From a virus, in IMG/VR virus record IMGVR_UViG_3300025759_011710, positions 1-31,998 of that record: DNA of 31,998 nucleotides; one strand, 5' to 3'. Position numbers and translations under genes: made by a program. Shown piece by piece: positions 1 to 24,000 of the stretch. Below the pieces are notes generated by a model, which was given only the letters and a program-made list of their open reading frames with translations, was not told the DNA's origin and made no database searches. Each line of letters begins with the position of its first letter. The stretch's first letter is position 1.

Positions 1-778
1 TTATAGTGATAGCTGAGCTTATCGAAGTCGGGGCTTGGTTGCTCGTCAATGCGTTTATAGGGAATTCCGTACTTAAACCTGTAGGACTTTGTTCAGTAGT
101 TTCTAAAAATCTTATAGCTTCTAGGTTTTGAGGCGCGTTTCTGAATCTAAGCCACTCGGCGGCTTGCATACCCCCCGGTTGATCCCAACTGCTGAGTGTA
201 AGATCTTCAAATCTTACATTGCGAGGATGATAGTTTAACATTTCCTCACCGAGGTATAGGCTTGTTACTCTTACATTCCTCGGTTTCCAGTCATCGGTAT
301 CCTGAGAATATATAGCAGTTGGGGCTTGGTTCGCCCCTAGAACCTCAATACTAACAATGCTCGTAGGTGCATCGCTTGCAGACATGTCGATATCGAGCTC
401 TAAATTGGTAGGTGCGTCACTTGAATCGAGAACCTTGACACTTATTAGTGAAGTAGGTGCGTCGTCGGAAATAAGTTGCTCTTCAGCCAACAATCCACTC
501 GGTGCTTCAGATGCTAGTTCTAATATTTTCGCAGCTACAAAGTCTCTTGGCTCAGAGCCGTCTAACTCCAAGTTAATGATTTTAACGAAGTTTGGCTTAT
601 GCTTATAGGAAATAGCTTTTACGCCAAGTAAAGATGGCCCTTCGCTAAGTGTCTTGTCGGCCGCTGAGATGCCCGTCGGAGCTTTTTCTTTCCCTAAGTC
701 TAGTTTTATTATCCTAGCGTTAGCTGGGTTGTGATCTTCAGTTAGTGTGAGATCTTCTCCCACAAGACCGGTCGGAGC
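1..778 (-). repeat. Tandem 45-bp coding repeats (15-residue protein units)
   Basis: In the minus-strand gene starting at 1048, codons 91 to 349 form consecutive units, mostly 15 codons long with occasional units of 14, 16 or 19. The unit starts with proline, usually preceded by Ala, followed by alternating hydrophobic positions and a short acidic or polar turn. The DNA copies have diverged strongly, so the repeat shows at protein level more than at base level. The array continues off the window edge. Confidence 0.75.
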
Positions 779-1048
779 TTTTTCAGGCCCGAGCGGTGGG
801 CAATTACCCCTAGATCTTATTTCTATTGTGTATTTGCCTGGTACATAATACCAAGCAAATCTAGAAACATCATTACCATTCTCGTCGAATACATAGGCTT
901 CATCCCGTTGGTCGGTACTATTTTCAATAGAGCCGTTAAAACTACAATATACAACATAGTGAACATTGGTCTTTACGCCTGCACTAATAGTTTTCGGTAC
1001 ACCGATCGCTATAGTTTTACCTTGAAATATTTCGACGGGGTCGCTCAT
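1..1048 (-). CDS. Repeat-built phage structural protein, C-terminus outside window
   Basis: I read 349 codons from ATG at 1048 with no stop before base 1, so the 3' end is missing. The ATG overlaps the preceding gene's stop as TAATG. Residues 1 to about 90 look like a small beta-sandwich, ending near WYYVPGKYTIEI. From residue 91 onward the protein is a tandem array of roughly sixteen units, mostly 15 residues, each beginning with a proline, often APT or PRN (for example APTSLISVKVLDSSD, then APTNLELDIDMSASD, then APTSIVSIEVLGANQ). The alternating hydrophobic residues suggest one beta strand per unit, as in a solenoid or fibrous shaft. By position it follows tail proteins, so a fibre or tail appendage is inferred. 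I recognise no family. The reading frame is certain; the role is not. Confidence 0.8.
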   Translation of the reverse strand, partial: MSDPVEIFQGKTIAIGVPKTISAGVKTNVHYVVYCSFNGSIENSTDQRDEAYVFDENGNDVSRFAWYYVPGKYTIEIRSRGNCPPLGPEKAPTGLVGEDLTLTEDHNPANARIIKLDLGKEKAPTGISAADKTLSEGPSLLGVKAISYKHKPNFVKIINLELDGSEPRDFVAAKILELASEAPSGLLAEEQLISDDAPTSLISVKVLDSSDAPTNLELDIDMSASDAPTSIVSIEVLGANQAPTAIYSQDTDDWKPRNVRVTSLYLGEEMLNYHPRNVRFEDLTLSSWDQPGGMQAAEWLRFRNAPQNLEAIRFLETTEQSPTGLSTEFPINALTSNQAPTSISSAITI

Positions 1049-1779
1049 TAGAAACTTTTTCCTATTAGATGCCCTACGGAAACCTCTCTTAAAGCCCAAG
1101 GGTATTTATTATGAGAGGCTATTAATAGTTTAATTTTAAACCTACGCCCTCTAATATTAGTAAACACTTTCATGTGTTCTTTAATTAAACCTTTGTACTG
1201 CCCGCTGTATTTCTTTTCTTCGTTTCCTACAAACCCCCACACATGACCGAAAGAGTTTTTATGAAATGATAAATCTAGTCGGTGTACTTGTTTTTCATTG
1301 TGCTCATCACCTAAATGAATCCAGTTAGTTTCGAATATGGCTAAATAAGCATCCCTAAAGAACAATGGGTTTTTTATAGACCCCGAAGTTTGAACGGGCT
1401 CATCAAAAGGTGTAGGTAAATATACACCTCTGTAATGAAAAGAATTTTCAGTAGAAGACCCCACTACTCCATCTTCATTCTCACTAAATGGGTATTTAGT
1501 TTCCCACCATAGGCCGCCAGGAGGCTCCTCGAATACAGTGTCTTTAAACTGAGTTAAATCCGTGGTGATTACTTTATCGCCTTGGGTTACCGCCAAAAAA
1601 CCTTCATCACTTGAGTTGGTAACAGCGTTTATATCTTCACCTACAAAAGGACCCGCAAGGGTGTCGTTATTCTCAGACAGCATAAACCCTTTATATTTTG
1701 GAGGCTTTGTCGTACCGGTAAAATCGGGAGTCCCCGTACCAACGACTTCAACATTTTTTCTACCTATATCCTCATCCAT
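1048..1779 (-). CDS. Phage tail protein, propeller-closing type (243 aa)
   Basis: I prefer the ATG at 1779 (MDEDIGRK) because a GGAG lies nine bases upstream; an in-frame ATG at 1794 adds five residues but has a poorly spaced AAGAAG. Either start overlaps the end of the 963-residue gene. The protein is beta-rich and ends with a basic segment, NIRGRRFKIKLL, then WALREVSVGHLIGKSF. A C-terminal GRRF...LREVSVG...GKS pattern is typical, to my knowledge, of the last blades of podovirus tail tubular or stabilisation proteins. The neighbouring upstream product has the matching N-terminal half, so the two may together form one propeller-like tail part split over two genes. No membrane segment or catalytic motif is visible. 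The tail role is inference from context and this motif. Confidence 0.7.
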   Translation of the reverse strand: MDEDIGRKNVEVVGTGTPDFTGTTKPPKYKGFMLSENNDTLAGPFVGEDINAVTNSSDEGFLAVTQGDKVITTDLTQFKDTVFEEPPGGLWWETKYPFSENEDGVVGSSTENSFHYRGVYLPTPFDEPVQTSGSIKNPLFFRDAYLAIFETNWIHLGDEHNEKQVHRLDLSFHKNSFGHVWGFVGNEEKKYSGQYKGLIKEHMKVFTNIRGRRFKIKLLIASHNKYPWALREVSVGHLIGKSF

Positions 1780-4663
1780 AATATATAGCTCCATTCTTCT
1801 TGTTAGCGGCGTATTCTTCGGTTTCTTTAAACTCTAACCAATTAAGTACTCCAAAGTCCGTTATAGCTCCGTTGGCTGCCGCAAAAGCTTCATTTACATA
1901 AGTCATACCGTTTACCAAATCACTACCTGAAGAACCTTCTTGTTCTAATCTATTGTAGTCGGGATCTCTAGGGGTATAATTATTATTAAAGTAATCTATA
2001 CCAAATTGAGAAGGTGCGACTAAAACGGGTGCTAGCGTTGAATTCCCGATTCCGTCTATAACATCTTGAGCTGCATGGATTGCTTCATGCATATATGTGG
2101 CATGCGCTCCAGCGACACGGACTACCGCATTAGGGTTATCGGGGTCACAAAAAGCCGAGCTACTGTCGGGGCCAAAGTTTAAAATAATACTATTTTCAGT
2201 TTGTTCGTATTGCCCGTGAATGATGCCGAAGCGACCATTAACCTGAACCATATCTTTCGCACCTACTTTTTGCTCAACACCCCAAGCTTCTAATTGAGAA
2301 AATATAGTAAGTGCGTCTGCTAAGTATTGATCTATACCACAAGCCGTGTAAAACTCAGTAAGAAAATCGGTCGTCAGTATTTTTTCGTCTCTCCAACCCC
2401 AAGTAGTTGTAAGCGCTCCTCTGTCGGGGGTTAAGTTAGCTAAAGCTGAATTTAGTTTATCAAGTCCGCTTGGCTCATCTGGTTTTGGGTTAGGGTTATC
2501 TGCACACTCTACCGAAACGGTTAAAGCTGCCGCGGGCTCTGCCGGATCATACCACGGATTCATATTGACCGTAGTGTTGTCTATCCCGACTGCTTCTAAC
2601 CCGTAATTCTCAAGATGGCTTAATGGATTTGAATCTTGGAAAAGTGTTAACCACTCGGCGGGGTCAGGAGCGCCTGAATTAATGATTATGAAAGGACCTG
2701 TTTTATTAAAAAGCTCTGTTCCCGACCTATCTTTAATTATTACTTTAGTACCGGCCGTGGCCACTAACACATCAAGACTTCCGGTAGTTGACTTAGGTGC
2801 TTTTACATCTTCAACACTTTCCGTAAAAACATCTTGTTTGTTACCGGTGGGCTCAAACGCTTTGTCGCCAGGTATACCCATAAACGCGGCTCTACAAGAG
2901 CTAGTCACGGTGCCGCAAACATCATTCGGGCAAGTTGCAGAGACAGTCCAAACGGTGCCTTGTATCGGCCCCCAAACTTTTACTTTTAATTTAGTTGGCT
3001 CGCTTTTTATTTTATCAAAAGTGTAAGTGCCTCCCGCTGTTGAAGGGAGAACTTTGATCTCTTCTCCTATAATTTCGGCCGGGATTGTTACGGGATTACC
3101 GTTGGCATCTTGAAGAGGTTTGTCAGTCCATACCCATTTTACATCTTTTAATTCAACAACTGGGCCAGCTCCGGTTGGGTCTACTGAACACCAACCTGAA
3201 TCAAACAACTCTACCCCGTCCCATTCAAATACAAATCTGTCGGGTACATATTGAGGAGTGTACGCTACAGTTACTTCTCCACATTTGTCGCCTAAATTAA
3301 TTTCAAATTCATCAGGTGTAGGCCAAGCAATACCGCCCGTTCTAGCTACATCCGTTTCACACTCGGCAACTTGCGGCGGCTCGGGTGTAGAGGTGTCGGC
3401 GGATTCATCCTTAGGTCTTACATAAACATCATCGGGATCATTAGGGGCATCAGGTGGGTCTTCCCCGTCATTAGGATCTTCGGGCTCAGGAGCGGGCTGC
3501 CCATCGGGTGTAATTATTTTATCTCTTTCTTTGTAGAGATCAGGCTCGGGGCATACATACTCAGGATCGACGGGTATAATTACATCATTTGCTTCAGCCC
3601 AAGTTTTATAATCGGGGTTTTCTATAAAAATAATATAAGTACCTGAGCTAGGGTCGTATCCTGCAAAAGTTTTAGAAAGATCATCGGGGTGGTGTTTATC
3701 CCACACACCTTTAGCTATGTAACTAGCTTGATCTTTATCAGACTCAGACTCCACTTCTTCACCCGATCTAGTAGCACTCTCGTCTTTGTAGATTTGCCCA
3801 TCGTGGCCTACCCAGTAAGGCATCGGACCATCTGAATTTGTTACCGATGCGTGTGAAGCTGCACCCGAAAAAGCCGAGCTTGGGGTCTGCTCTGTTCTAA
3901 AACCACTAGACGCTTGACCGGGCTTTGGTGTGTATAATAATGTACAACCTTTATCGGTGTGAACGATAACTTGATTATTGACGACTGATAAACCCGTTAT
4001 TTCGGTAGCATTAGTTAAAAGTAAATCAACTTTACTTACGGGGAAATCAGAGTAAGGAGCATCAACATCGGGGTTTGATAGATTTGCGGGTTCTGATACA
4101 TAAACCGACAAAGGGTTATTGCAATCGCCGGCTGCAAATAATGCTTTACCTGGGCCGACAACGAAGTACTTACAAAGCGGAAAAGATCTCCACTCCATGC
4201 TATAAATTTGTTCATCTGGCTCATATTTGTAATCCTCTTTATTAATACCTACTTGAAGAGCGTTAGCCGAGCCATCGCCGAAGACCAACGACCTATTACC
4301 AACGCTATTAAAATAAGCGTTTCGTTGATTAAATGTATCGTCTGTAAGGACGGGACCAAAATTATCAAACCCACCTAACTTGCCTTTTGAATTCCTAATA
4401 AGACCTATGTCATGGATAGCTCCAAACCTACTTATATACGCAATTTTATCCCCTTCGTCATTCAACACCATGTCAACACGATTTGAAGATGTTTCAGATA
4501 ACGGTTGGTCTGAGAGATCTAGTAACTCTGTCCATACGGGCGCTGAACGAAGGCCGCCGGTCGGCTGCGGTATGCAACCTTCTACGACCGCAAGGGACCC
4601 TCGATTTGCATCATCTCGATGACCCTCGATTCCCGTAAAATTAGGTATCCTAAAAAACCTCAC
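1772..4663 (-). CDS. Tail nozzle-like protein with C-terminal zincin domain (963 aa)
   Basis: The start is GTG at 4663, with AAGGA just upstream, and overlaps the preceding stop as GTGA. Residues 1-370 resemble podovirus tail tubular/stabilisation proteins: an N-terminal FRIPNFTGIEGHRDDANRG with a following IPQPTGGLRSAP, a middle LFAAGDCNNPLSVYVSEPAN, and AGYDPSSGTYIIFI. Residues about 380-440 are a Pro/Asp/Glu-rich linker. About 445-600 is cysteine-containing and Ig-like in pattern. Residues about 740-940 form a separate domain with HEAIH at 859-863 and a candidate third zinc ligand at Glu925 (VNEAFAA), the layout of gluzincin metallopeptidases. The same domain occurs in the 567-residue protein two genes upstream. 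The inferred role is a tail component carrying a peptidase or peptidase-derived domain. No catalytic activity can be shown from sequence alone. Confidence 0.75.
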   Translation of the reverse strand: MRFFRIPNFTGIEGHRDDANRGSLAVVEGCIPQPTGGLRSAPVWTELLDLSDQPLSETSSNRVDMVLNDEGDKIAYISRFGAIHDIGLIRNSKGKLGGFDNFGPVLTDDTFNQRNAYFNSVGNRSLVFGDGSANALQVGINKEDYKYEPDEQIYSMEWRSFPLCKYFVVGPGKALFAAGDCNNPLSVYVSEPANLSNPDVDAPYSDFPVSKVDLLLTNATEITGLSVVNNQVIVHTDKGCTLLYTPKPGQASSGFRTEQTPSSAFSGAASHASVTNSDGPMPYWVGHDGQIYKDESATRSGEEVESESDKDQASYIAKGVWDKHHPDDLSKTFAGYDPSSGTYIIFIENPDYKTWAEANDVIIPVDPEYVCPEPDLYKERDKIITPDGQPAPEPEDPNDGEDPPDAPNDPDDVYVRPKDESADTSTPEPPQVAECETDVARTGGIAWPTPDEFEINLGDKCGEVTVAYTPQYVPDRFVFEWDGVELFDSGWCSVDPTGAGPVVELKDVKWVWTDKPLQDANGNPVTIPAEIIGEEIKVLPSTAGGTYTFDKIKSEPTKLKVKVWGPIQGTVWTVSATCPNDVCGTVTSSCRAAFMGIPGDKAFEPTGNKQDVFTESVEDVKAPKSTTGSLDVLVATAGTKVIIKDRSGTELFNKTGPFIIINSGAPDPAEWLTLFQDSNPLSHLENYGLEAVGIDNTTVNMNPWYDPAEPAAALTVSVECADNPNPKPDEPSGLDKLNSALANLTPDRGALTTTWGWRDEKILTTDFLTEFYTACGIDQYLADALTIFSQLEAWGVEQKVGAKDMVQVNGRFGIIHGQYEQTENSIILNFGPDSSSAFCDPDNPNAVVRVAGAHATYMHEAIHAAQDVIDGIGNSTLAPVLVAPSQFGIDYFNNNYTPRDPDYNRLEQEGSSGSDLVNGMTYVNEAFAAANGAITDFGVLNWLEFKETEEYAANKKNGAIYYG

Positions 4664-4941
4664 TTATCCTTTTTAGGCTCTTCTTTGTAAGGAAACAACC
4701 GGTTGAGTTTTTCTTGCCTTCTTTTACACCCTCCGCATTGCTTAATTCCCATAGCATTAGTTACCTTTTTAATGGTATCACCGAGCCCTTTACTTTTTTG
4801 TCTATTTGTCAATTCTTCTAGCCGCTTGTTATGCGCAGCCGTATCAACTTCCGACATTTTCTGAAGTATTGCTTTTCGTCTGTCGTTGTATTCAAGTTGT
4901 AGCTTTTTAAGCTCCTCTTCTAGTTCTTTTTTAGTAGTCAT
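4660..4941 (-). CDS. Small coiled-coil protein with CGGC motif (93 aa)
   Basis: The ATG at 4941 overlaps the preceding gene by 11 bases (ATGACTACTAA), and its TGA overlaps the next gene's GTG. Residues 1-50 are charged and heptad-like (KELEEELKKLQLEYNDRR), predicting a coiled coil. Residues about 52-85 read GDTIKKVTNAMGIKQCGGCK followed by RRQEKLNRLFPYK. I remember this CxxCKxRQExLNxxFPY pattern as common in short phage proteins of unknown function, often next to tail genes. Two cysteines alone could form a redox pair or, in a dimer, a zinc site. It may be a chaperone or minor tail part; the function is unknown. Confidence 0.8.
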   Translation of the reverse strand: MTTKKELEEELKKLQLEYNDRRKAILQKMSEVDTAAHNKRLEELTNRQKSKGLGDTIKKVTNAMGIKQCGGCKRRQEKLNRLFPYKEEPKKDK

Positions 4942-6634
4942 AATAATTAAGTATTTCTGCTCTCATTAGGTCTAAAACTGTTTGAAAATCTTCTACTGTG
5001 TCGTCTAATGAATATGCCTCGGCTTCCAGTCCTAGCACGAAAAAGTCGGCGTCTGCTCCCTCAGCTTCTATTGCTTCGTCTAAACCCGCGGCATCTACTA
5101 TATTTATAAAATTCATTAGAGTGTCACCTACAGTTCCGTTTTTGAAATCTTGAAGCAAGTGGACACATTCATGAGAAAGAGTTTTTACGGCCTCACTTTG
5201 CCAAGGTATACCCAGCAAATTTGCTCGTTCTTTAATAGTATCAATATACAAAACTAGTGTACCCGCCGTTTGGTCGTACTGCCCCGCGACAGTATAAGTT
5301 TGCCCGGGTTGTTGAGGTAACGAAGAGTCGAGTGTAACGGTAGCCCCTAGAGCCTCGGCCGCTTTTGTTAAATTAGCTAAAAAGATTTGTCGATGAGTTT
5401 CCGCTTTGTTAAAATAAGTGCTCCACACTCCAGGTGTTGGGGTTTCTAATATTTTAACAGAGCTATGCCCACCATTAGCCGATATTAAAGCTATTCTTGC
5501 GTCTTCGGGTTCATAGTGTTTAGTAAGCCAGGGTTTAGATTTTTCTGATTTATTTGAAAAAACATAGGTCTTGTCGTCGGGGTTTTTATGAGGGTTTGGA
5601 TCCCACATTTTATATTGTCTTCCGTCTATCCCGTATAATTTCCAACCGTCTTCTTCTTTAACTAAAGGGTTACTTTTTTGACCCGCTGGGTAGTATTGAC
5701 ATGACTCACAATCCCATTCATAAAACCTTCCCTGCATGTTTTGAACATTGTCTCCAACGGAACTTATAAGCTCTACATATAAATTTTCCATTGGTTCTCC
5801 CGTTGCGAGATTTGGCATTTTTAGATCCTCATCACAACAAGCTATGATTTCTAATTCATCTGTATGGTATGAACCGAGAAGTTTATTCCCTTTCCATAGT
5901 TTAAAAAAGCAACTGCCGTATACTTGTTCCGTGCGCTCTTCGTCTATATAGTGCCAATCGTCCTCCATTGGGTCGTGCGGCTTAACTTCCCACTGAAACA
6001 ATCTTCCGCACTTTTTGGGTTCTTCTTTAACATAGGCGCATTGACCGGGGAATGTACACGCCGTTGGCGGGCAATCGACCGGCATCCATTCATCAAAGAA
6101 AACTGACTCCGTAACAACTTGATAATAGTCACTCTCATTTGAGTCTTCTCTAAGAAGGACTACGCAATCAGTTTGGGTAAAGGTTTCCATGTAAGCTTTT
6201 TCATCCGAACCGTCATCGGGGTAAGCACCCGCCTTGTCGCAATATTCTACGAAATATGTAATCCCGCCCATATCTTCTACCCACTCCCAACAGCCCGTCC
6301 AACCACAAATACAATCAGATGGGCAGGGATCTACTTTTACATAGTTCTTTTCGTAATTATCTTCATTAATAACAATAGGGGGTATGTCGATATTATCCCC
6401 CGTGTATGGGTCAATTGGTTGGAGTACTATTATACAAGGCTCGGATCCCTCGTAGCTTGAGTATCCTTCCTTAGCTCCTGAATATATAATCCTATAAACC
6501 TTGTTACTATTATCGGAAGGAGATACGCAACCCGACTCATCTTTACACGGTTTTTCGCAATCATCACAAGGCCCATCCGAGCATATTAAATTGCCGTCAT
6601 TATCAAAACAGCATTTGTGGGGTAAAAAATCCAT
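4931..6634 (-). CDS. Cysteine-rich virion protein with C-terminal zincin domain (567 aa)
   Basis: I choose the ATG at 6634 (MDFLPHKCC), which overlaps the preceding stop as TAATG; an in-frame TTG at 6652 would add six residues. The N-terminal 330 residues hold 23 cysteines, many clustered (CSDGPCDDCEKPCKDESGC), with many aromatic and acidic residues. This suggests disulfide-linked or metal-bound small domains. The C-terminal 150 residues contain GQYDQTAGTLVLYID, then SHECVHLLQD with HECVH at 488-492 and a candidate third ligand Glu at 537 or 539 (LEAEAYS). That order and spacing match the C-terminal domain of the 963-residue protein, so the two are likely paralogous zincin domains. Its place in the tail operon suggests a virion protein, perhaps tail-associated. 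The N-terminal family is not recognised. Confidence 0.75.
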   Translation of the reverse strand: MDFLPHKCCFDNDGNLICSDGPCDDCEKPCKDESGCVSPSDNSNKVYRIIYSGAKEGYSSYEGSEPCIIVLQPIDPYTGDNIDIPPIVINEDNYEKNYVKVDPCPSDCICGWTGCWEWVEDMGGITYFVEYCDKAGAYPDDGSDEKAYMETFTQTDCVVLLREDSNESDYYQVVTESVFFDEWMPVDCPPTACTFPGQCAYVKEEPKKCGRLFQWEVKPHDPMEDDWHYIDEERTEQVYGSCFFKLWKGNKLLGSYHTDELEIIACCDEDLKMPNLATGEPMENLYVELISSVGDNVQNMQGRFYEWDCESCQYYPAGQKSNPLVKEEDGWKLYGIDGRQYKMWDPNPHKNPDDKTYVFSNKSEKSKPWLTKHYEPEDARIALISANGGHSSVKILETPTPGVWSTYFNKAETHRQIFLANLTKAAEALGATVTLDSSLPQQPGQTYTVAGQYDQTAGTLVLYIDTIKERANLLGIPWQSEAVKTLSHECVHLLQDFKNGTVGDTLMNFINIVDAAGLDEAIEAEGADADFFVLGLEAEAYSLDDTVEDFQTVLDLMRAEILNYYDY

Positions 6635-9600
6635 TAACTCGGAGTACCACAAGGAAGACCCTTCATAAGTCTTCCTACAGAGTCTTCGTTAGTTTGACCA
6701 TCGGGTACAGAGGTGGTTAATACATTAATAGTTTTTGTCTCATATTGACCACCACCGACATACACACATACCGAAACTTCTTGTTGGTAAACCTCATCTC
6801 CAACTTCGGGGCCTTTTAGGTGACCATAAACCTTTTGTGTGCTGTCTGATTTTTTAGTTAAGACTCCGCATTTTACAGTGTATTGGTCTACAAGGAAGCT
6901 AAACTTAATAAAAACTTGGTTGTTTACACAATCAACACCTTCGGGGTTAAGCAAGGTACTTCCATTAGCATAGGCTGCAGGGTTTATTACTTTTAATGTA
7001 TCGCTGAGCGGAGCCTTGTCCAAAATTGGAACATATGCTTTTTTAGTAATGTTCGAATTTTCAAGCAAAAGTTCGGGGTAATCAAAATATGAAGATGTAG
7101 ATTGCTCTTCCCCTAGCTCAATTTCTTCCGTAGTCAATCGAGCTTTTTCTGAAGCCTGAAGACTTTGATCCGTAGCATCTATTGTGTACTTGTACCTATC
7201 AAATTTTAAGGTCGGAGAGTTAACGCTCGAAATATCAACTTTATCGTACAGAGCTCCTTTCCAAGTTATAGCATTAGGAGAACCGGGTGTTCTAGTTATT
7301 TCATTAACATTAAAAGAAGCACTCTCGTCGTAAGATGTACCGTAGTTTTTGTTTAGATCTACTCTACTGAAATAACATATTTCGCTAACATAATAAGGTT
7401 CAACCTCATCAAATGTTATTGAAGTCATTTCCATCGGATCATAATTCGTACTTTGAGGAGTTATGGTCGTCTCAAACTTATCGGCGGGGACTGTGTGGGA
7501 ATTATCAGTGGTAACTGAAACTGATGTACTGTCTATTGTTTTGTCGGGTTGCGGGTTGTCCGTACCTTTTACATACTCGGCACTGTGAATAGTCGCCGAA
7601 TCATCGGGCACTGTGTTACCGCTATTGTCTACAGTTTCAGTTATGCAGATTTTCGTACCTTCTACATTAAAATCCGTGGGTTTAGTAAGAGGATTTTTAC
7701 CTACTCTGGTGGAAAGTATTTCCGCGTCGGGAACATCACTGTCGTCGGTTTTAGCTACTTCACATTCTTTAATACTTTTAGTAACTTTATTAGGGTCGGT
7801 ATCTTTAATATAAAATCCAAGTTCTCTGATGTATTTAGTTTCTTCCTTTGGATCTATATTACTTATATCCCAATCTATTTTTGTAGACTCCGCGTCGTTT
7901 ATAGTTGTGGATTTTGTACCTACCGATGTGCTATCAATATCGATGTCGGGTATAGGTGATTTGTCACCCGTAGTAAGTTCGTAAGCGTCAAATTCGATGT
8001 CTTCTTGCTTATAATACTCATCTACTTCTTCGCATTCTACTTTTAAGCTGTCTATGTCTTCGTCAATATCTTCGGGCTGTTCAGTAGGCTCTTCGATTTT
8101 TAAGCTGTCTACCGGGTAAGTTTTAGGTTCAGGTGGGGGGCTTATCGGTATTTCCTTAAACTCTGTACTGCTTATTTTTTCTTCGGGTTCTGAGCCGGGT
8201 TCCACAGTTATTGACCCCATATTTTCGGTAGTAGTAGGGCCCATGCCCCCTGTTCCGTTGAGTGTTTGACACTCTGAAGTATTTAGATCTAACGAACCTT
8301 CCGTATTTGTAACTGTAACTGGCTTATATTTTATAAGCTTTTTAAATTGTTTAAATGTAAAGTTCTTCGGGATAGCTTTATATTGCTTAGCCTCTTTGTA
8401 AACTATCTCTAACTGTTTAGAGGTAAGCTTAAGCGCCTTACGCTCCATTATAAATTTATATTGTTTTGGAGTAAGGGTTACTTCTTTTTCGTCTTCAAAT
8501 TTTATCGTTATCTTAGACGGTTTAAACTTAGCCCATTTAGGGTTGTCATGCGTTAAAGTAGTTGTCTTGTTTTCTAAAGTAAGCTCATAAACATTAGAGA
8601 AATTAAATTCATAATCTTCCGAGCTTATCTCTAGTTCTTTATTTTGATATTTTAACTCAGTTTCACGCGGTGTAAGTGTGACTTCTTTGTTTTGATATGA
8701 TAAATCACTTTTATAAGGAGTAAGAGTTACCGTTTTAGGGTCGTCAAAAGATACAGTAGTGTCTTTTTCCCGCCAGTACAGTCTTTCTCGTTTTAAACAT
8801 TCAAAATAAACTTTCCAAGGCTCTGAGGTAACCGTAGTTTCTTCGTCCGTTGAAACAGTTACCGACTTTGCTTTTATAACATCCGTACGCTTAGTTTGAG
8901 CGAATTTGTAAATATAACTGCTAAAAGTAGCAGTCTTTTTAGTCCCGACCCACTCACCGGGTCTTCTGGTAATTGTTAATTTATGTTTATCAAAATCAAA
9001 AGTAGTATTATAAATTGTCGCCGGTATTTGTTGCCAAGTTGCATCGTACGAAAATTTCTTAATTGTATTTTGTATGCGGTGAGTGACCGCTTTCATTTTA
9101 AGATCTACCGCAACTTCTGTTATGTTTATATTAGAAATTGATGCGTTCAACGCATTATTATTTTCATACTCGGTAACCTTTATTTCTTTAGTGATGTTCG
9201 CTAAAGTTAAATTATCTTTTTGCTCATAAGTAGTTATTTTTACCGGCGTGCCCTTTACATAAAAATCCCAATTCTGAGTGTAGGTGGTCGCAGACCTTTC
9301 ATTGAAGTATTGTCTTCTCTCATTAACTACGATTTTTTTAACATCAAAAGCAAAGCAATCATCCGTAGATGATGCTGCTGAGCTTGTTAAAGCAAGTGTG
9401 TCAAAATCTTTTCCGAGATTTTCATTAACCCCAAGACCGGTTAGTATATTGAATTCGTCGTCTTTTGCCTTTGTTCCTTTATCTACATAAGCATTTTCTA
9501 AAGACTTAAGAACGGTGTGCTCTTCAAGCTTTTGCTTTGTCCCCAGTATCGGATTTAACGCGGTAACCTCGGTAAATTTATTAGTACTTTTAACACCTTT

Positions 9601-11316
9601 ATTAACATTAGTTGGCGTCCCGGCGGTTACATTGGTAATTACATCAAAATTATCTTTCTGACTTGGACTAGGTGCGTTAAAACTTAACTCAGTTATTTCG
9701 GAAACATTTATATCGTTGTCGTAATCCCAAGTTACATCTTCACAATCGATATTTATATCTAAGTCCGTAGTAAAATTAAACTTCTCTAAATCATCGGTTC
9801 TTTCTTCCCAATTTACATCTACTCCGGGTACTTCCTGACCAGCGGGATCCGACAAATGGTCATCGGTAACTTTCCATGTTTTCCCGCCGTGAGTGACTAC
9901 TTGACCTTTAGTATATTGCGTATTTGGAGCCCAGGCGGGGTAGCTTCGAGCTTGAGCAGTAGATCCGTTTGAGGTTGGAGCACCAAAGTAATAGTCATTC
10001 GTGGTCTCCGGCCCTGTCCAACTATGAGTTGCGTCAAACATCTCAATAGTTTCGGTAGAAGGGTTGCCGTTTGGAGTCTCGTTCGTAATTGTTAGCTCAT
10101 TAGAGTAAACATTAGTAGGCGTCTCAGTACCCGAATCATCAATAGTAGTTCTATTAGTTTCAAAACTGCCATATGCGCAATCTAGCTCCCCTTGTGAAAC
10201 ATTTTCGTGAATATTCCAATCAGTAGAGTCATAATTAGTGACCTCACCCCATGTACCGGGAGTTACTGATGGGCTAGCGGTGCTAAAATCTACCGCAGTT
10301 AAAGGTGTCCGTTTTACATCTACCTCGCTTACTTTAAAAGTCTGCGGCTTGGCAGTAGCTGATTTAGATTTTGTACTTTTAGTTGGATCTAAGAAATCCT
10401 GATCTATGTCTAATTTTGTAGCTTGTAATGTTGCTTTCGGTTTCGTATTGGTCTTTTTTACTTCCAGCTTAAAGGCGTGAAAAACTACTTTATCGCCTTG
10501 AGTAGGAGTGGTTGAGGATAAGGAAAACATATCCAATTCAATATCCTCACCATTTGGTACTTTATCACCCGTAATTTTTTGACTGTAAAAGGTGCAAGGC
10601 GGATCAAGGTGAGCGTCAGTTTCCGAAGGCTTAAATTCTACTTTAGTAGGAAGCTCTACATCTATAGGTTCGGGTGCGGGGTCTGGAGTAGTGTCTTTTA
10701 CCTCAATCTCGGGAAGTTTTAAATCTACTTCTTCAGGCTGGGGGTCGTCCGGGGTGATTGTTAAATCGTCTAGGTTTATATCTTGCTGAGAACCGGGGCT
10801 AAGAGTCGTCTTTGAAAACTCCGCCTTTACAACAACTCCCGTGCCGGGAAATGTCTCAGTCCAAACGATAAGCTCAAGACGGGTTTCACCGCTCTCTCTT
10901 TTATTTTTAATAGTCCCGTCTATATTTGCTTCTTTTTGAAAACCTGAAGGGCTGTCGCTAGTTCTGTCGATTAACCCCACATAACAATAATACAGACAAG
11001 GTGAACCTTTTATTACTATAAGATCTCCGTGAGATATTAATCTATCTCTTTTCCTTTTATTAGGATCCCACTCATCATCTATAATTTTTTGGAAACAAGC
11101 GTGCCCTAAACCTCTCGAAGTTGGTGGGGACAGCCCATAATCACCGACATCTACAAAATGTATGATAGTTTGTCTACTACCCGCGGGGCTTTCTACAACA
11201 TTTAAAGTACCCTCAAATATACTTTCGGGGTCACTATTTTCGGCTATTATCTCCTCAACTTGAGTTTCTAGAGCAATTAACCGTTCTTTTAATTCTTCGG
11301 CAGTTTCCTCGCTCAT
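6634..11316 (-). CDS. Large beta-rich tail fibre or spike-like protein (1560 aa)
   Basis: The ATG at 11316 directly follows the preceding TAG with no clear ribosome binding site, suggesting translational coupling. Residues about 3-28 form a short acidic coiled coil (EETAEELKERLIALETQVEE). About 30-170 appear globular. About 457-505 resemble a family 5/12 carbohydrate-binding module: AWAPNTQYTKGQVVTHGGKT, then WKVTDDH and a closing NWEER. Residues 861-975 contain 16-residue strand repeats such as KEVTLTPRETELKYQN. The rest is Thr-, Ser- and Asp-rich with many alternating hydrophobic segments and few helices, including PDxxIxSTxV-like units between about 1100 and 1330. Size, composition and position suggest a receptor-binding fibre, spike or long adhesin-like tail protein. 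No enzymatic motif is seen. Fibre function is inference. Confidence 0.75.
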   Translation of the reverse strand: MSEETAEELKERLIALETQVEEIIAENSDPESIFEGTLNVVESPAGSRQTIIHFVDVGDYGLSPPTSRGLGHACFQKIIDDEWDPNKRKRDRLISHGDLIVIKGSPCLYYCYVGLIDRTSDSPSGFQKEANIDGTIKNKRESGETRLELIVWTETFPGTGVVVKAEFSKTTLSPGSQQDINLDDLTITPDDPQPEEVDLKLPEIEVKDTTPDPAPEPIDVELPTKVEFKPSETDAHLDPPCTFYSQKITGDKVPNGEDIELDMFSLSSTTPTQGDKVVFHAFKLEVKKTNTKPKATLQATKLDIDQDFLDPTKSTKSKSATAKPQTFKVSEVDVKRTPLTAVDFSTASPSVTPGTWGEVTNYDSTDWNIHENVSQGELDCAYGSFETNRTTIDDSGTETPTNVYSNELTITNETPNGNPSTETIEMFDATHSWTGPETTNDYYFGAPTSNGSTAQARSYPAWAPNTQYTKGQVVTHGGKTWKVTDDHLSDPAGQEVPGVDVNWEERTDDLEKFNFTTDLDINIDCEDVTWDYDNDINVSEITELSFNAPSPSQKDNFDVITNVTAGTPTNVNKGVKSTNKFTEVTALNPILGTKQKLEEHTVLKSLENAYVDKGTKAKDDEFNILTGLGVNENLGKDFDTLALTSSAASSTDDCFAFDVKKIVVNERRQYFNERSATTYTQNWDFYVKGTPVKITTYEQKDNLTLANITKEIKVTEYENNNALNASISNINITEVAVDLKMKAVTHRIQNTIKKFSYDATWQQIPATIYNTTFDFDKHKLTITRRPGEWVGTKKTATFSSYIYKFAQTKRTDVIKAKSVTVSTDEETTVTSEPWKVYFECLKRERLYWREKDTTVSFDDPKTVTLTPYKSDLSYQNKEVTLTPRETELKYQNKELEISSEDYEFNFSNVYELTLENKTTTLTHDNPKWAKFKPSKITIKFEDEKEVTLTPKQYKFIMERKALKLTSKQLEIVYKEAKQYKAIPKNFTFKQFKKLIKYKPVTVTNTEGSLDLNTSECQTLNGTGGMGPTTTENMGSITVEPGSEPEEKISSTEFKEIPISPPPEPKTYPVDSLKIEEPTEQPEDIDEDIDSLKVECEEVDEYYKQEDIEFDAYELTTGDKSPIPDIDIDSTSVGTKSTTINDAESTKIDWDISNIDPKEETKYIRELGFYIKDTDPNKVTKSIKECEVAKTDDSDVPDAEILSTRVGKNPLTKPTDFNVEGTKICITETVDNSGNTVPDDSATIHSAEYVKGTDNPQPDKTIDSTSVSVTTDNSHTVPADKFETTITPQSTNYDPMEMTSITFDEVEPYYVSEICYFSRVDLNKNYGTSYDESASFNVNEITRTPGSPNAITWKGALYDKVDISSVNSPTLKFDRYKYTIDATDQSLQASEKARLTTEEIELGEEQSTSSYFDYPELLLENSNITKKAYVPILDKAPLSDTLKVINPAAYANGSTLLNPEGVDCVNNQVFIKFSFLVDQYTVKCGVLTKKSDSTQKVYGHLKGPEVGDEVYQQEVSVCVYVGGGQYETKTINVLTTSVPDGQTNEDSVGRLMKGLPCGTPS
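8392..8736 (-). repeat. 16-residue strand repeats within the 1560-aa protein
   Basis: On the minus strand, codons 861-975 of the gene starting at 11316 include regularly spaced units: KTVTLTPYKSDLSYQN, KEVTLTPRETELKYQN and KELEISSEDYEFNFSN in direct succession. After a divergent stretch come KEVTLTPKQYKFIMER and KALKLTSKQLEIVYKE. The consensus is roughly K-x-V-x-L-T-P-x4-L-x-Y-x-N. The two strands per unit are typical of a beta-solenoid or stacked-strand shaft. Confidence 0.75.
9800..9945 (-). other. CBM5/12-like carbohydrate-binding segment in the 1560-aa protein
   Basis: This part of the minus-strand gene encodes an aromatic-rich stretch (residues about 457-505) of the form W-x-P-x-T-x-Y-x-x-G-x-V-V-x-x-x-G-x-x-W-x-V, ending in a Trp-Glu. 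This is the pattern I know from chitin-binding CBM5/12 domains, which also occur in phage tail proteins. The similarity is by eye only. Confidence 0.55.
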
Positions 11317-14652: not shown

Positions 14653-16170
14653 TTAATAGCTAAATCCGGGGATTTGACGAACTGCTTCGACAAGCTGAGC
14701 ACCTGGAATTCTTCCGTTGGTGTCTTGATAAGCAGCCATTCCGTAAACGGATTGGATACCTACAGCTGACAAGTGAGCTTCGTTTCCACTATTAGCGAAA
14801 TCGTCATAGTGGAAGATTTGCTCGTTAGATACTGCACCTTTAGCGTAGTAAAGAGCACTCTTACCCATTGCCAACGCATACCCGATTGGAGTTCCAAGAG
14901 AGTTACATTGGTAGATAACGGTTCCGGCTGGGATTGTTCCCGCTACTGCCAAGTTAATGCTGTTCTTTGTAGGAGTGCCGGCGCTTGATGCTGCTGCGAG
15001 CTGACCTCCGCTGCTTACGCGAACAAGACCGGTAAGTTGGTTACCGCTATTTACCTTATAAGAAGCACAACCGTAGTCCCCAGTAGGAGAAACTGCGAGA
15101 ATGTATCCGTCAATATTAGCTGCACCAGTAGCAGTAGTTGCATACTTGAATCCGCCTCCGCCTGGGATCTTTGCGTCGAAACCTGTGAAATTTGCAAAGC
15201 AGTCATAACCAAGGGTAAGCGTACCCGCGGTAGCGATAGTAAGAGCATTGCCAATAAGAGCGGTTGGAAGCAAAGGAGAACCTTGGCGTCCGTCAGCTGT
15301 GTCGATAATCACATTGTGATTGGCAATAATATTACCGTCCCACATTGCATAATTACCGCTGTACAATTTGTTAGCGCTACTACGCTCGTCAGCTTGAAGA
15401 ATAGCTTCGAGGTAATCAGGATCTGAACGAAGTGGGCGTAAGCAAGCGTCAGGAGCGAAGAACAAGTAACCGGGAATTTCGGTTTTGTCGTCACCGCCAA
15501 CATTCATTGGCTCACCACCTTGGGCGATCAATGCTTGTTTAGCTTCCTGAATAATATCAGTACTTAACCCTTCTGTGTACAGAAGATTAGGTCCTGCTCC
15601 GTAACCTGAGATGAGGTTTGAAGTAGAGTTGTTCAAGCAGGTGTCACGAAGAACCATTTGGATATGATCCTGTTCAGTGCGTCCTGCCCATTCGGACATA
15701 ACTTCGGCTGAAAGCTGGTCAATAGTTTTGCCTGTGAAGCGCATAAGTTTTACAACTTGCGTCCAAGCAACAGCGTGACGGATAAGATCCACTTCAACGC
15801 TAAATGCGCCGAATTTTAGCTTTCCGGTTTTATTCTTGAGGATTTGTTCCCCACGAACACCCTGTCCGCGAATTGGAGCAACTGTTGTAAAAGTTACTTT
15901 GTCTGATCCGCCTGCGCTAAGATCGCGTTTTTCAACTACTGGAGAACCGGAACCTTCAGATCCGATAAATTTTGCGAATACATTCTTTTCCCGAGCGTCG
16001 CGAGTTACGAGCTCAGACCAAAGTCTGGTGCGCAAATCACCATCGGCAAAGATAGTAGTACCGCCCTTGTTTGCGGAAGTGCTGTAGTTAGTGTTTGTAT
16101 TGAGCAAGTCGACATTACCGAAAGTTGCGGCTGCTGACTGTGCTGCTACGGTTGCTGCTTTATTAGCCAT
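14653..16170 (-). CDS. Major capsid protein, N4-gp56 family (505 aa)
   Basis: It builds the icosahedral shell (HK97 fold). The family signature runs from residue about 45 to 170: LRTRLWSELVTRDAREKNVF, AKFIGSEG, KVTFTTVAPIRGQGVRGEQI, then LIRHAVAWTQVVKLMRFTGK and DQLSAEVMSEWAGRTEQDHI. Residues about 320-440 are Gly/Ala/Thr-rich and beta-like (IPGGGGFKYATTATGAANID and following) ahead of ALYYAKGAV, apparently an inserted domain, which makes the protein longer than I expect for the family. Start ATG at 16170 has AAGGA ten bases upstream. All 30 isoleucine codons are ATT or ATC, never ATA, unlike neighbouring genes, as expected for very high expression. A terminator follows. The scaffold gene lies just upstream. 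Confidence 0.9.
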   Translation of the reverse strand: MANKAATVAAQSAAATFGNVDLLNTNTNYSTSANKGGTTIFADGDLRTRLWSELVTRDAREKNVFAKFIGSEGSGSPVVEKRDLSAGGSDKVTFTTVAPIRGQGVRGEQILKNKTGKLKFGAFSVEVDLIRHAVAWTQVVKLMRFTGKTIDQLSAEVMSEWAGRTEQDHIQMVLRDTCLNNSTSNLISGYGAGPNLLYTEGLSTDIIQEAKQALIAQGGEPMNVGGDDKTEIPGYLFFAPDACLRPLRSDPDYLEAILQADERSSANKLYSGNYAMWDGNIIANHNVIIDTADGRQGSPLLPTALIGNALTIATAGTLTLGYDCFANFTGFDAKIPGGGGFKYATTATGAANIDGYILAVSPTGDYGCASYKVNSGNQLTGLVRVSSGGQLAAASSAGTPTKNSINLAVAGTIPAGTVIYQCNSLGTPIGYALAMGKSALYYAKGAVSNEQIFHYDDFANSGNEAHLSAVGIQSVYGMAAYQDTNGRIPGAQLVEAVRQIPGFSY

Positions 16171-19013: not shown

Positions 19014-21050
19014 TTATCCTGTTTGTTGTTGATATTGATTTTCGCCCTGTGGATTGCTGTTACCCATTCCCTGGACTTGTGCTGCAATTTGATCACCGGC
19101 TTCGGGAGCTTGTCCACCGCCACCGGCACCTTGAGCATCCGCCATGAGTTTCATAATCTCAGCTTCGCTTTTAGGATCGGGAGGTGCGGCTTCGGGTAGA
19201 AGCTCTTCCGTATTTTCGTAGCCTAGAGCGTCCAAAATGCGCTTAAACATAGGACGGCTAAACGGTCTGATTTCCGGTGGGTGTTGTAAAAATCTCTCTT
19301 GTACTTGGAGAGCTAAGTTAGCTTTTTCGATAGCTCTTTGACCCTGATCCTGAGAAAGAATAACTTTACAATTCATTTCTAGGTTAGCAATACGCTCGGG
19401 GGTCATTTCGGCAAAAGCTGTTACATCTCCTTCCATGTACTCATAGATCTCGGCTTCGTCCATAGTTGCCATGGATACTTTAATCAATTTTGCCAAGTGC
19501 TCTTCAAAACCGCGTACAATTCTACGCATCCAACGGCGTCCTATTTTAGAAGCTTCGTTAAGTGTAGCTTCAACTCCCGTAGCTGTATTAGCGGGAGATA
19601 ACGCTTGGTAGTCACCTTGCGCCATGTTCGATACGCCGAGCCAAAGCTGAACCATTCCGAATACGAAATCTATTAACTCTTGAGTTTTGTTGTCTAAATT
19701 AGGAAGAGCGGAAAACGATAGAAAGTCTTCCATACTATACTGATCCTTGAGCTGAAATAACTTACCCGCATGAAGCTCTACATCTTCGGGCTCATCTTCG
19801 ACGGCTTGAGGGTTAACACCTATAATTGGATTAGATGAAAGCTCGTTTCTATAGCTCTCTGAATTAAATTGTTTATCGATATACTCCTGATATGTCCTGA
19901 TTTTTTCAGGTAAACTCGGACCCCACCAACGGTTCTTCATTTTACCGATAGCAACTGTTACATAAGGAGGTTTGTTATCGGGAGTTAATTTAGCGGTGTA
20001 CTCGTAAAAAATAGCTTTTTTTAATTCCGTGTCGATAAACACACAGAAATCTTGTGGCTCACCGGTGCCGAGAATGTCTTTAGATATCCAACACTCTACG
20101 ATAGGAATCATAGGTACTTTTTCCTGATCCCATTTTACGGTGTCCTTTGACTCTTCATTCTTTTCAGAATCAGTCCTTGGATTAGCATCTTTTTTGACAG
20201 CTTCTAAATAATCGGCGAATGAGAACCACTCTCTGTTAAGAAAGATCTCTTCACACCAGTGCAGATTTTTGTCGTAAAGTTCGGCTATAAAATCGGCGTA
20301 TTCTAGGTGCTCAACGGAGCTTGGAGCTAAGAATCTATCGGAATCAACGACCACCGACCGAGGACCTTTGTACTTTATCTGTTGAGTCGGTACGCCTTCG
20401 GGAAACGGTTTAAATTCATGTTTACCCGGCGTGACAACGAACGACGGGTCGGCTTCTAGACGAGACTCCGTTTCGCCGGTTTCAGGGTTAACTTCGGGGA
20501 ATAGATTAGACTCTCCTTCAATTACCGGGCCTTGGTCTAAGATCTCTACAAACTCTTGAATCTCGTTATCAAACAAAGCGCTACGCTCCATGTCGTACCA
20601 TGTAGATTTACGCTCTTCATAAACGGATTTAAATATAGCGGCTCTTTGGATAAATATATGCAGAAAACTTTCCTCAAGCCTTTCACGGATACGGCCTTTG
20701 TCTTCTAGTTTCCAATGGAAATATCTGTTAAAATCTTCAGCGGAATCAGCATCTGCGAGCCCTTGCGGTTTAAATTCGAAGTATGGGCTAGTTCCCGTTA
20801 TTTCATCTTCAGCTCTAGCTAAGAAATGATCTACGACTAAACTGGTCAAGGGTACTGAAACATTTGATTGTGAATAAATACCGTCTAGCGAATCCCGATC
20901 AAACCGATCATTTTCATAAGTTTTCCAAGAAAGTTTATCAGATTTAATCCTAATCGCGTTGTCTTCCTTAAGGGCTTCAACTCTATCCAGCGCGTACTGA
21001 ACGAGCTTTTCCTCCTGTTCTTTGTTAAGTATTAGATTTGTATTCTTCAC
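19014..21050 (-). CDS. Portal protein (678 aa)
   Basis: It forms the ring at the capsid vertex through which DNA is packaged and ejected. Sequence support: a charged helical N-terminus, KTYENDRFDRDSLDGIYSQS near residue 45, a long central part with WYDMERSALFDNEIQEFVEI and GPRSVVVDSDRFLAPSSVEH, and a C-terminal stem-like helix region with ANTATGVEATLNEASKIGRR and WMRRIVRGFEEHLAKLIKVS. This is the helix order I know from large podovirus portals. The last 60 residues are Gly/Gln/Pro-rich and disordered. Start is GTG at 21050, with no ATG available near the conserved N-terminus and only a weak ribosome binding site. It precedes small genes, scaffold and capsid, as expected. Confidence 0.85.
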   Translation of the reverse strand: MKNTNLILNKEQEEKLVQYALDRVEALKEDNAIRIKSDKLSWKTYENDRFDRDSLDGIYSQSNVSVPLTSLVVDHFLARAEDEITGTSPYFEFKPQGLADADSAEDFNRYFHWKLEDKGRIRERLEESFLHIFIQRAAIFKSVYEERKSTWYDMERSALFDNEIQEFVEILDQGPVIEGESNLFPEVNPETGETESRLEADPSFVVTPGKHEFKPFPEGVPTQQIKYKGPRSVVVDSDRFLAPSSVEHLEYADFIAELYDKNLHWCEEIFLNREWFSFADYLEAVKKDANPRTDSEKNEESKDTVKWDQEKVPMIPIVECWISKDILGTGEPQDFCVFIDTELKKAIFYEYTAKLTPDNKPPYVTVAIGKMKNRWWGPSLPEKIRTYQEYIDKQFNSESYRNELSSNPIIGVNPQAVEDEPEDVELHAGKLFQLKDQYSMEDFLSFSALPNLDNKTQELIDFVFGMVQLWLGVSNMAQGDYQALSPANTATGVEATLNEASKIGRRWMRRIVRGFEEHLAKLIKVSMATMDEAEIYEYMEGDVTAFAEMTPERIANLEMNCKVILSQDQGQRAIEKANLALQVQERFLQHPPEIRPFSRPMFKRILDALGYENTEELLPEAAPPDPKSEAEIMKLMADAQGAGGGGQAPEAGDQIAAQVQGMGNSNPQGENQYQQQTG

Positions 21051-21061
21051 GATATCATTTG

Positions 21062-24000
21062 TTATACATCAATTCCCATCTTTCTAGCTTTGTACAATAC
21101 TTTAAGCCATGTCGCGACCCGTTGCTTTTCGTACTCTTCGATCTTAGCAGCTTTTTGTGATTCCGACAACTTACCCGCATTAACTTTATCGATGAGTCTT
21201 TGTATTGCTTTTCGTTTAGTATCAGCGGCATCTACGATGGGTTTGATTTTTAATAAGTCTTTGTTGGCCAACATTGCTTGTTTAGCTTGTGTTATGTTTT
21301 TACCATTTTTTAGGTTTTTTACATACTCATTAGCTACATCTACTCTGTGTTTCAGACCGTAAAATCTTTTAGAAGTTGTGAAACTTGAATAACCTTCTCT
21401 GTAGAATCTGCGTGTTACGGGAACTTCCTTCCAATTAACATCTGCATTTCCATTTAAACCTGCATATGCTCCTGAAATAATTCTCGAAAACGCTGCACCT
21501 GGGCCACCTGTGTATCCTTCGAATATGTGCTCTAAGTCGCTTCCTGAGAGCCCCCAAAGCATATCATCCATTTCGTTAGTAACCTCGCCTGCACCAAACA
21601 TTTTCTTTAATGATCCGGGAGTCACTTCGTCACCGCCTAACCATTTGTTAATGCTTTTTGCGGCATCTACGAAAAAGTCTTTAGTTCCTTTACTACTCCT
21701 TTCGGAGGCTGGTGTCTTTACTCCGAAGTCTCTGTCTTTTCTAGTAATGGGTGCTCCATAAAAAGTTTCGTTTTGCATTACTTGATACAAAGGAGCAAAT
21801 ACACCAGGAACCCAAGTTTCACCAACGGGGTTAAATGTGTTGTAGAAGTTATCCATAGCGCTTGCGCCATTAGCTATAACTCCTGAGCCACCCATAGCGG
21901 GTCCGAATTGGCTTGCGACTACATTAGATGCTTTCTGCCCCATCATCCAAATTAAGTTCCAACCCCAAGGTAATGGGACTCTTAAGTTCTTATCCGTTCC
22001 GGGTATAAAAGCTACGAGATTAGAATCTCTTTCAAAGTCACCTAAATTATCGTAATGGTTGCCTTCTTTTTCACCGTCTTCATCTTCGTCGTGACCGGTA
22101 AGCAATCTTTGAAGTATCCCCCACATAAAAGATACGGTCATAATTCCGACCACTATTTTAGCAGCTCCTGCATCCCTATTAGCCAACGCTCTTAAGAACC
22201 TCAAGTTACCCTGAACTCCTGCGTTAAAGAACAATACCAAAGAACCAATACTTGAGCTTAGCGTACCCTTACGGTTGAAGTCTACGGAGATGTTTCTACC
22301 AGCCATAACGGCTTGCTGTATTGTAAAACCGGATTGGAGCAGCTTGGTGGCTACAACCAACCTGACTGTGTTTTCCACACCCGCATTAGCCGCTTCAACT
22401 ACTTTAATAAATCTATTTTCGAGCAGAGCTGTTTTAGCTTTGCTTATTTTTCTTTTAACTCCGGTCGGTTGAGTTCCGAGGACTTTTTGAATATCCTCCA
22501 TTGCGTTAGTCATTGCGTCAGGGCCTGAGAAAGCTGTACGCAAGCCATGTGCTTCGAAGAATTTAAACCAACTTTCCCAATCACCTTCGGGTATTTTTAA
22601 AGCTGTTTCTCGGTTAACCTTAGCCCACTCGTTAGATCTTTTACCCTCTTCTAAACTTCTTTCTACTTTATAAATACCTTTTGTAACTTTGTAGAAATTA
22701 CGGGGGTTTAAAAGTGAAGCTACATCTTTAAATATCTTTTTCTTCTCGTCTTCTCTGATGTTAGCCATCGCATTGATCGTATCCCTAACAGCATTCGCAA
22801 GAATGAAGTCGGGATTGAACGATGTGTACATCTGAGCGAGGAAACGAGTAGGTACATTAAATAGTTTAAGTATAGGGTTGGTAGGTACGAAATTAAGGTT
22901 ACCTAACTCAGCTTTCATACGAGCACCGATGCCCGTAAGAGATTGACCACTCCGGGCTACCTTCATGTTAAACTTAACAAATTTAAGCTCACCTTTTTGC
23001 TTAACCAAGAAGATAGATGGGTCTTGCATACTTATAGGTATTTCTCCTTTTCTTAAGACCGTTCTAGTTTTACCATCTACTACTTTTTTCTTTAAACGGG
23101 TACCCTCTACTGTTGGCATTTTCCCGCTTAAATCTTCTTCGTTAATTACATCGAAAATTTCATTAAACTCTTGGAATATGATCTTTCGCTTAGCGGGGTC
23201 GTTAAATAGTTTAGATATACCGTTTGCTTCGGTAATTCCTTTAAAATTGTCAGACCACTCAATATTCCCATCTAAGTTGTCTCTGTTTTTAAATAATTCT
23301 AAAAACAACTCATAGAACTCACGCATACGCTGACCGGGTGCTATTTTCGCACCTCTCATAACCATTGCGTCATGATCTAAAAATGCATGAGCTAAAGCAG
23401 TTGAAGGGTCGGGCTTGTCCACACCTTTTCTTCTACCTGTGACTCTTTTAGAAATTTCGTTACTGCTCTTTGAAGCCCAACCCGATTGACCCCCTTTTAT
23501 CTTAATAAGATCTTGAAGAGCTTCGGTTTCTTCGTATTGAAACTCGTTGTTCTGAAACCCTCTCATTGGGGCATAGAAATAACCACTAGGTAACCCGAGA
23601 TCTGAGTCTACTTTATTCTGAGCCTTCCAATTATCGGAGTTAAATGTAGCCTTTATTGTAGCAACATCTTCTGCGTACTCAGGGGCAGTGGGATCAAGTT
23701 CCAATGACTCAAATACAATGTTAACAAGTTCATCCGCAGTAGCGGCTCTTGATTTAGATGTGATTAACTTAAAGGCTTCTTCTTGAGTAATTTGACCCGT
23801 TTCCAAAGCGCGGGAAATAGTAGTGGCGTTCATCCTTGCCCACAGACCCATGATACTTTGACTTGGGTTACTCGCTCCGTGTTTTAACAAACGGGTAAGT
23901 TTACTGTTTGACCTAGCATTATTTACTATAGCGGCAGCTTCTCTGTCGGAATAACCTGACGGTGCAAACTCGCCGCTTTCATTCTCGTACAAAGATTCGT

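Follow-up and report, generated by a model that had tools for sequence, protein, structure and literature searches.

C-terminal zincin-like domains on two neighbouring putative tail proteins suggest a protein-cutting enzyme on the tail of an uncultured phage

Results

The window analysed here is a whole IMG/VR virus record of 31,998 bases in which every large gene lies on the minus strand. It encodes a major capsid protein identified as Phage_capsid_3 (14653-16170, minus strand) and a portal protein (19014-21050, minus strand; match to SU10_portal, E 1e-28). The capsid protein was found to be encoded in at least 90 IMG/VR stretches in one scan, which points to an abundant phage group; tblastn with the capsid and portal proteins gave zero matches among 50,697 phage records. 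The gene for psbA, a sign of a cyanobacterial host, was absent from 20 related records. Downstream of the capsid gene follow, in order, genes for proteins of 103, 340, 635 and 1560 amino acids (aa), protein B, a 93-aa protein, protein A, and proteins of 248 and 366 aa. One relative, G002 (capsid identity 90%), repeats all of this order and a dozen more records repeat parts of it.

Protein A (963 aa, 1772..4663, minus strand) is a putative tail protein with a C-terminal zincin domain, and its position in the late gene block is conserved in relatives. The N-terminal part (residues 1-360; 3584..4663, minus strand) is conserved in some 40 related records and had no match in PHROG or PDB, that is, no solved structure or family. 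Among 11 proteins compared with the N-terminus, the best was SU10 gp17 (P 0.012, 3.5% probability), and an assignment as a tail protein of the T7 gp12 or SU10 gp17 type was not accepted. An acidic, Pro-rich stretch covers residues 385-430 or thereabouts. Residues 415-582 (2918..3421, minus strand) have counterparts in structural proteins of Cellulophaga phages (27% identity, E 1e-8): they resemble the C-terminal part of the structural protein gp120 of Cellulophaga phage phi19:3 (E 1e-8), with weak matches to Flavobacterium phage proteins as well. Judged by these matches, this segment is a mobile module of tail proteins.

Protein B (4931..6634, minus strand) has a Cys-rich N-terminal part and a C-terminal zincin domain. 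Its length of 567 aa is counted from an ATG; the listed 573-aa open reading frame begins at an upstream TTG. The start codon of B meets the stop codon of the gene for the 1560-aa protein (6634-11316, minus strand), and this protein contains a CBM_5_12 carbohydrate-binding module (residues 461-492, E 8e-8), so that sugar-binding and protease-like modules stand side by side. The 93-aa protein encoded between B and A (4660..4941, minus strand) is conserved at this place in relatives and is without a zincin. Gene order after the capsid gene, which is conserved, and the A module found in Cellulophaga structural proteins make A and B putative tail proteins.

An earlier note on this DNA had described A and B as proteins with unrelated N-terminal parts and a common C-terminal order of elements, namely a helix, G-Q-Y-[DE]-Q-T, a strand, HExxHxxQD and a Glu motif. 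The order, with G-x-Y after the helix, was confirmed, and the motif positions given there proved exact. The zincin domain of A spans about residues 763-963 (1775..2377, minus strand), as delimited by profiles, with GQYEQT (2198..2215, minus strand) preceding the edge strand and HEAIHAAQD at 2063..2089 (minus strand; HEAIH at 2075-2089). The domain of B (4934..5407, minus strand) has GQYDQT (5267..5284, minus strand) before the edge strand and HECVHLLQD at 5147..5173 (minus strand; HECVH at 5159-5173). In 20,000 residue shuffles, plain HExxH arose in 0.9% (A) and 1.4% (B), and HExxHxxQD in 0% and 0.01%, respectively; the longer motif is therefore not a product of chance.

The A and B pair of zincins recurs in G002. 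There, the A homologue has 71% identity over the first 588 residues and 37% in the C-terminal part (motif HEAVHVAQD), and the B homologue has 28% identity (HESIHALQD). Two other relatives, G003 and G005, carry A's copy without B's (HEMVHAAQD, followed by LELEANS); in G003 a 228-aa protein occupies the slot of B; it lacks a zincin but has a Cys motif like that of B (E 0.006). HExxHxxQD, including the catalytic Glu, is unchanged in five of five fused copies and in free-standing members of the family, and is thus kept in diverged homologues of A and B, as would be anticipated from the earlier note. The N-terminal 360 or so residues are retained in about 35 further A homologues that lack the QD-type zincin. 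One of them, L132 (L132:4872-7454), carries HELCHILGV and ELMTP in the domain at its C-terminus; HELLHMLGF occurs in the gene right after A in L147 (L147:6708-9143), and HELFHLLGM in a gene between the portal and capsid genes in L080 (L080:2232-4163). These three domains are alike (pairwise E 1e-4 to 3e-3) and, by motif, look metzincin-like. Pfam M8 recognised none of the three, and membership of the leishmanolysins, tried for the domains of L132 and L147, was dropped. A 246-aa protein encoded near A in L112 (L112:8408-9148, minus strand) has HEMVHVLEG and, further on, WLTEGLA, with matches to Pfam M9 (E 0.02) and M1 (E 0.04) that both fall under the cut-off, and is possibly another type of metallopeptidase in the same gene block. 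From the motifs of L132, L147, L080 and L112 it follows that metallopeptidase-like domains occur repeatedly among the structural genes of this group.

Two further observations concern the surroundings of these genes. The 366-aa protein at the end of the window (2-1099, minus strand) is rich in short repeats built around an APT[GS]-like core, and similar APGAP repeats precede the metzincin-like domain in the A homologue of L132. In G003, which has the zincin on A, a phage integrase gene adjoins the tail block (L099:14588-15805, minus strand; phrog_1, E 1e-15), from which some members of the phage group may be temperate.

Apart from A, B and their homologues, the family is seen only as free-standing proteins about 185 aa long, in phages of Synechococcus (S-CRES1 gp58, S-CREM2 gp108, annotated 'metallopeptidase', and in MA01, S-H34 and S-N03) and in many IMG/VR contigs (47 loci, with two more distant ones besides). 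The free members match phrog_16003, phrog_3541 and phrog_591, all of unknown function. They have the same order of elements as A and B and the same HExxHxxQD and ExEA signature, and in a 26-row alignment the H, E, H, Q, D and Glu-Ala positions are invariant. However, they carry N-termini that, judged by eye, are typically signal-peptide-like, so that they are apparently secreted, and conserved Cys residues (QDC and a C-terminal C) that the A and B copies lack, whereas the latter are C-terminal domains of large proteins. S-CREM2 gp108 is not among the proteins of the published S-CREM2 virion proteome (PMC10665884 Table 3), and at least one function of the family must therefore lie elsewhere than on tails. 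Two pattern scans of bacterial and archaeal genomes yielded no cellular relative of the zincin family, and these scans traced no host origin of the domain.

Aligned directly, the A and B domains share 22 of 84 residues (blastp, E 3e-4). Their Smith-Waterman score of 65 was reached by 3 of 5,000 shuffles (32 ± 5), and once the nine residues of the motif were masked, 185 of 5,000 shuffles scored as high; from the two sequences alone, the similarity is thus mainly carried by the motif. We therefore argue homology through profiles. Here hhalign gave E 5e-7 for A against B, 5e-14 for B against the standalone family and 6e-10 for A against it, in agreement with the earlier claim that the two zincin domains are related. 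A hidden Markov model built from free members, with A and B left out, found B with E 3e-8 and the A proteins of G002, G003 and the window with E 8e-5, 3e-3 and 6e-3; this model, too, relies on the motif (masked B, E 1.8). Scans of IMG/VR with the single sequence of either domain found nothing. In Pfam, full-length A and B had no match and the domains alone matched only below the curated cut-off, so that neither was placed in a named Pfam peptidase family. Taken together, the profile comparisons give strong support for homology of the two domains and for their assignment to the phage family phrog_16003 and its relatives.

AlphaFold, run with 26 sequences, predicted for both domains a helix, strands, the HExxH helix and a Glu helix (pLDDT 70 and pTM 0.72 for A; 78.6 and 0.76 for B). 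With moderate confidence, both models contain the N-terminal helix, three-stranded sheet and two C-terminal helices that define zincins (PMC5512222), and in both HExxH lies on a helix. Foldseek searches of the PDB returned mostly zincins, all with E > 0.05: lethal-factor-type and IrrE-type zincins, YbeY, collagenases and minigluzincins. The predicted layout thus agrees with the zincin fold proposed earlier, but the matches to solved zincins are weak; they are consistent with a zincin layout. Minigluzincins (selecase, abylysin), YbeY and the IrrE-type, M48 and lethal-factor-type zincins head the Foldseek lists and share the general fold, but with E > 0.05 and no sequence match the likeness extends to fold class only.

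The earlier note had also named a downstream Glu in each domain as third zinc ligand. For B, LEAEAYS (5009..5029, minus strand) falls at the Glu helix in the large alignment and in the model and is the putative ligand, but for A the segment named, VNEAFAA (1877..1897, minus strand), is doubtful: the A orthologue of G003 and G005 has VRLAF there. The large alignment pairs VNEAFAA with ELEAF of the free proteins and the model, which inherits that alignment, places it on a helix. When the fused copies are aligned alone, LEQEGSS (1928..1948, minus strand) pairs with LELEANS, its counterpart in the G003 and G005 orthologue, and with LEAEAYS and LEVEAYS. Of the two candidates, we lean towards LEQEGSS. 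Overall, sequence and models support two zincin-type domains of one gluzincin-like family, located at C-termini in the late structural gene block.

The window encodes yet another zincin-like motif, HEGGHYIQD (30620-30634), near the N-terminus of a 3631-aa polyvalent protein with LPD38 (21062-31957, minus strand) that is probably ejected by the phage. Its homologues in G003, G033, G028 and G021 retain HE[LS]GH and a downstream AE[EW]WF. The proposal that this zincin is a third copy of the A and B domain was rejected (hhalign probability 13-16%).

Discussion

How A and B came to carry related domains can be read in two ways. The earlier note had proposed duplication of a peptidase module; in a tree with very long branches a clade of A and B was not rejected (p-AU 0.57, likelihood 0.8 higher), but the tree is just as compatible with two independent acquisitions of a free-standing phage gene. 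Duplication and double capture would both fit.

Our preferred explanation, to which as a whole we give an even chance, is that A and B are virion tail proteins that would each bear a compact C-terminal zinc endopeptidase. The peptidase family would be phage-specific and gluzincin-like, marked by HExxHxxQD and then a Glu helix that usually reads ExEA. At the variable end of the tail protein the domain would form an exchangeable, outward-facing enzymatic tip and cut a host-surface or cell-envelope protein as the phage adsorbs or penetrates; it would thus act on protein in the way that tail depolymerases act on polysaccharide. Its variable C-terminal placement speaks for this explanation, as do the further metallopeptidase-like domains that relatives encode in this gene block, and the signal-peptide-like N-termini of the free relatives suggest a domain made for work outside the cytoplasm. 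That A and B belong to the tail is read from the order of the genes, and their binding of zinc, their catalytic activity and the host target are predictions as well.

The earlier note had also considered tail maturation and a structural relic. The latter is unlikely, since the motif persists in homologues whose overall identity is no more than 27-37%. A similar point bears on the idea that the zincin fold was kept as a non-catalytic receptor-binding or structural tip. Fast divergence is typical of host-contact domains, and the zincin of A has indeed diverged more (37% identity against 71% for the N-terminal part), but HExxHxxQD is unchanged with its catalytic Glu in all five fused copies and the free family, and we consider a pure binding role improbable.

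Equally improbable in our view is that the domains cleave themselves or trim tail proteins during assembly, although processing of this kind was proposed by Iyer et al. for the zincin-like peptidases in polyvalent proteins (PMC5512222) and the acidic, Pro-rich stretch of A could serve as a cleavable linker. Most related phages have the same conserved tail genes without the domain, which can thus not be needed for assembly. Less probable still is entry of the domains into the cell with the DNA to cut a host protein inside. The giant, probably ejected protein with its own zincin would mean that this phage uses proteases early in infection, but the genes of A and B sit in the block of tail genes and not with the giant one. 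The exported look of the free relatives, which do not seem cytoplasmic, argues against both maturation and delivery.

We thus return to A and B as zinc endopeptidases that are carried on the tail, can be exchanged and would act on the surface or envelope of the host, a reading about as likely to be right as wrong. Tail-borne depolymerases are exchangeable enzymes on variable parts of tail proteins, and most enzymes known from phage tails act on sugars and peptidoglycan. The predicted A and B enzymes would resemble depolymerases in this arrangement, but their substrate would be protein rather than polysaccharide, and we do not claim homology. Zincins are known in ejected polyvalent proteins and in the N4 vRNAP (PMC5512222, PMC12633501). 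These MPTase domains (Iyer et al. 2017) share the helix, strands, HExxH helix and Glu helix with A and B, but lie in ejected polyvalent proteins, and their profiles match the A and B family with 13-16% probability. In open-access papers we found neither a pair like A and B, in line with the earlier note, nor any description of this zincin family on tail proteins, single or paired.

A small zinc-protease-like domain on two neighbouring putative tail proteins suggests that the tail carries a protein-cutting enzyme. A wider reading is more tentative and less likely than not: a widespread group of uncultured phages may breach protein surface layers with interchangeable tail proteases (QD-type zincins, metzincin-like domains and perhaps others), which would serve as host-range factors and be proteolytic counterparts of polysaccharide depolymerases. 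If true, the finding would give a virion role to a protein family of marine phages that is unassigned and apparently secreted, and such proteases would be a source of small phage enzymes. A tail protease that phages exchange like a receptor-binding tip would offer a little-explored route past protein layers such as S-layers, outer-membrane proteins and pili.
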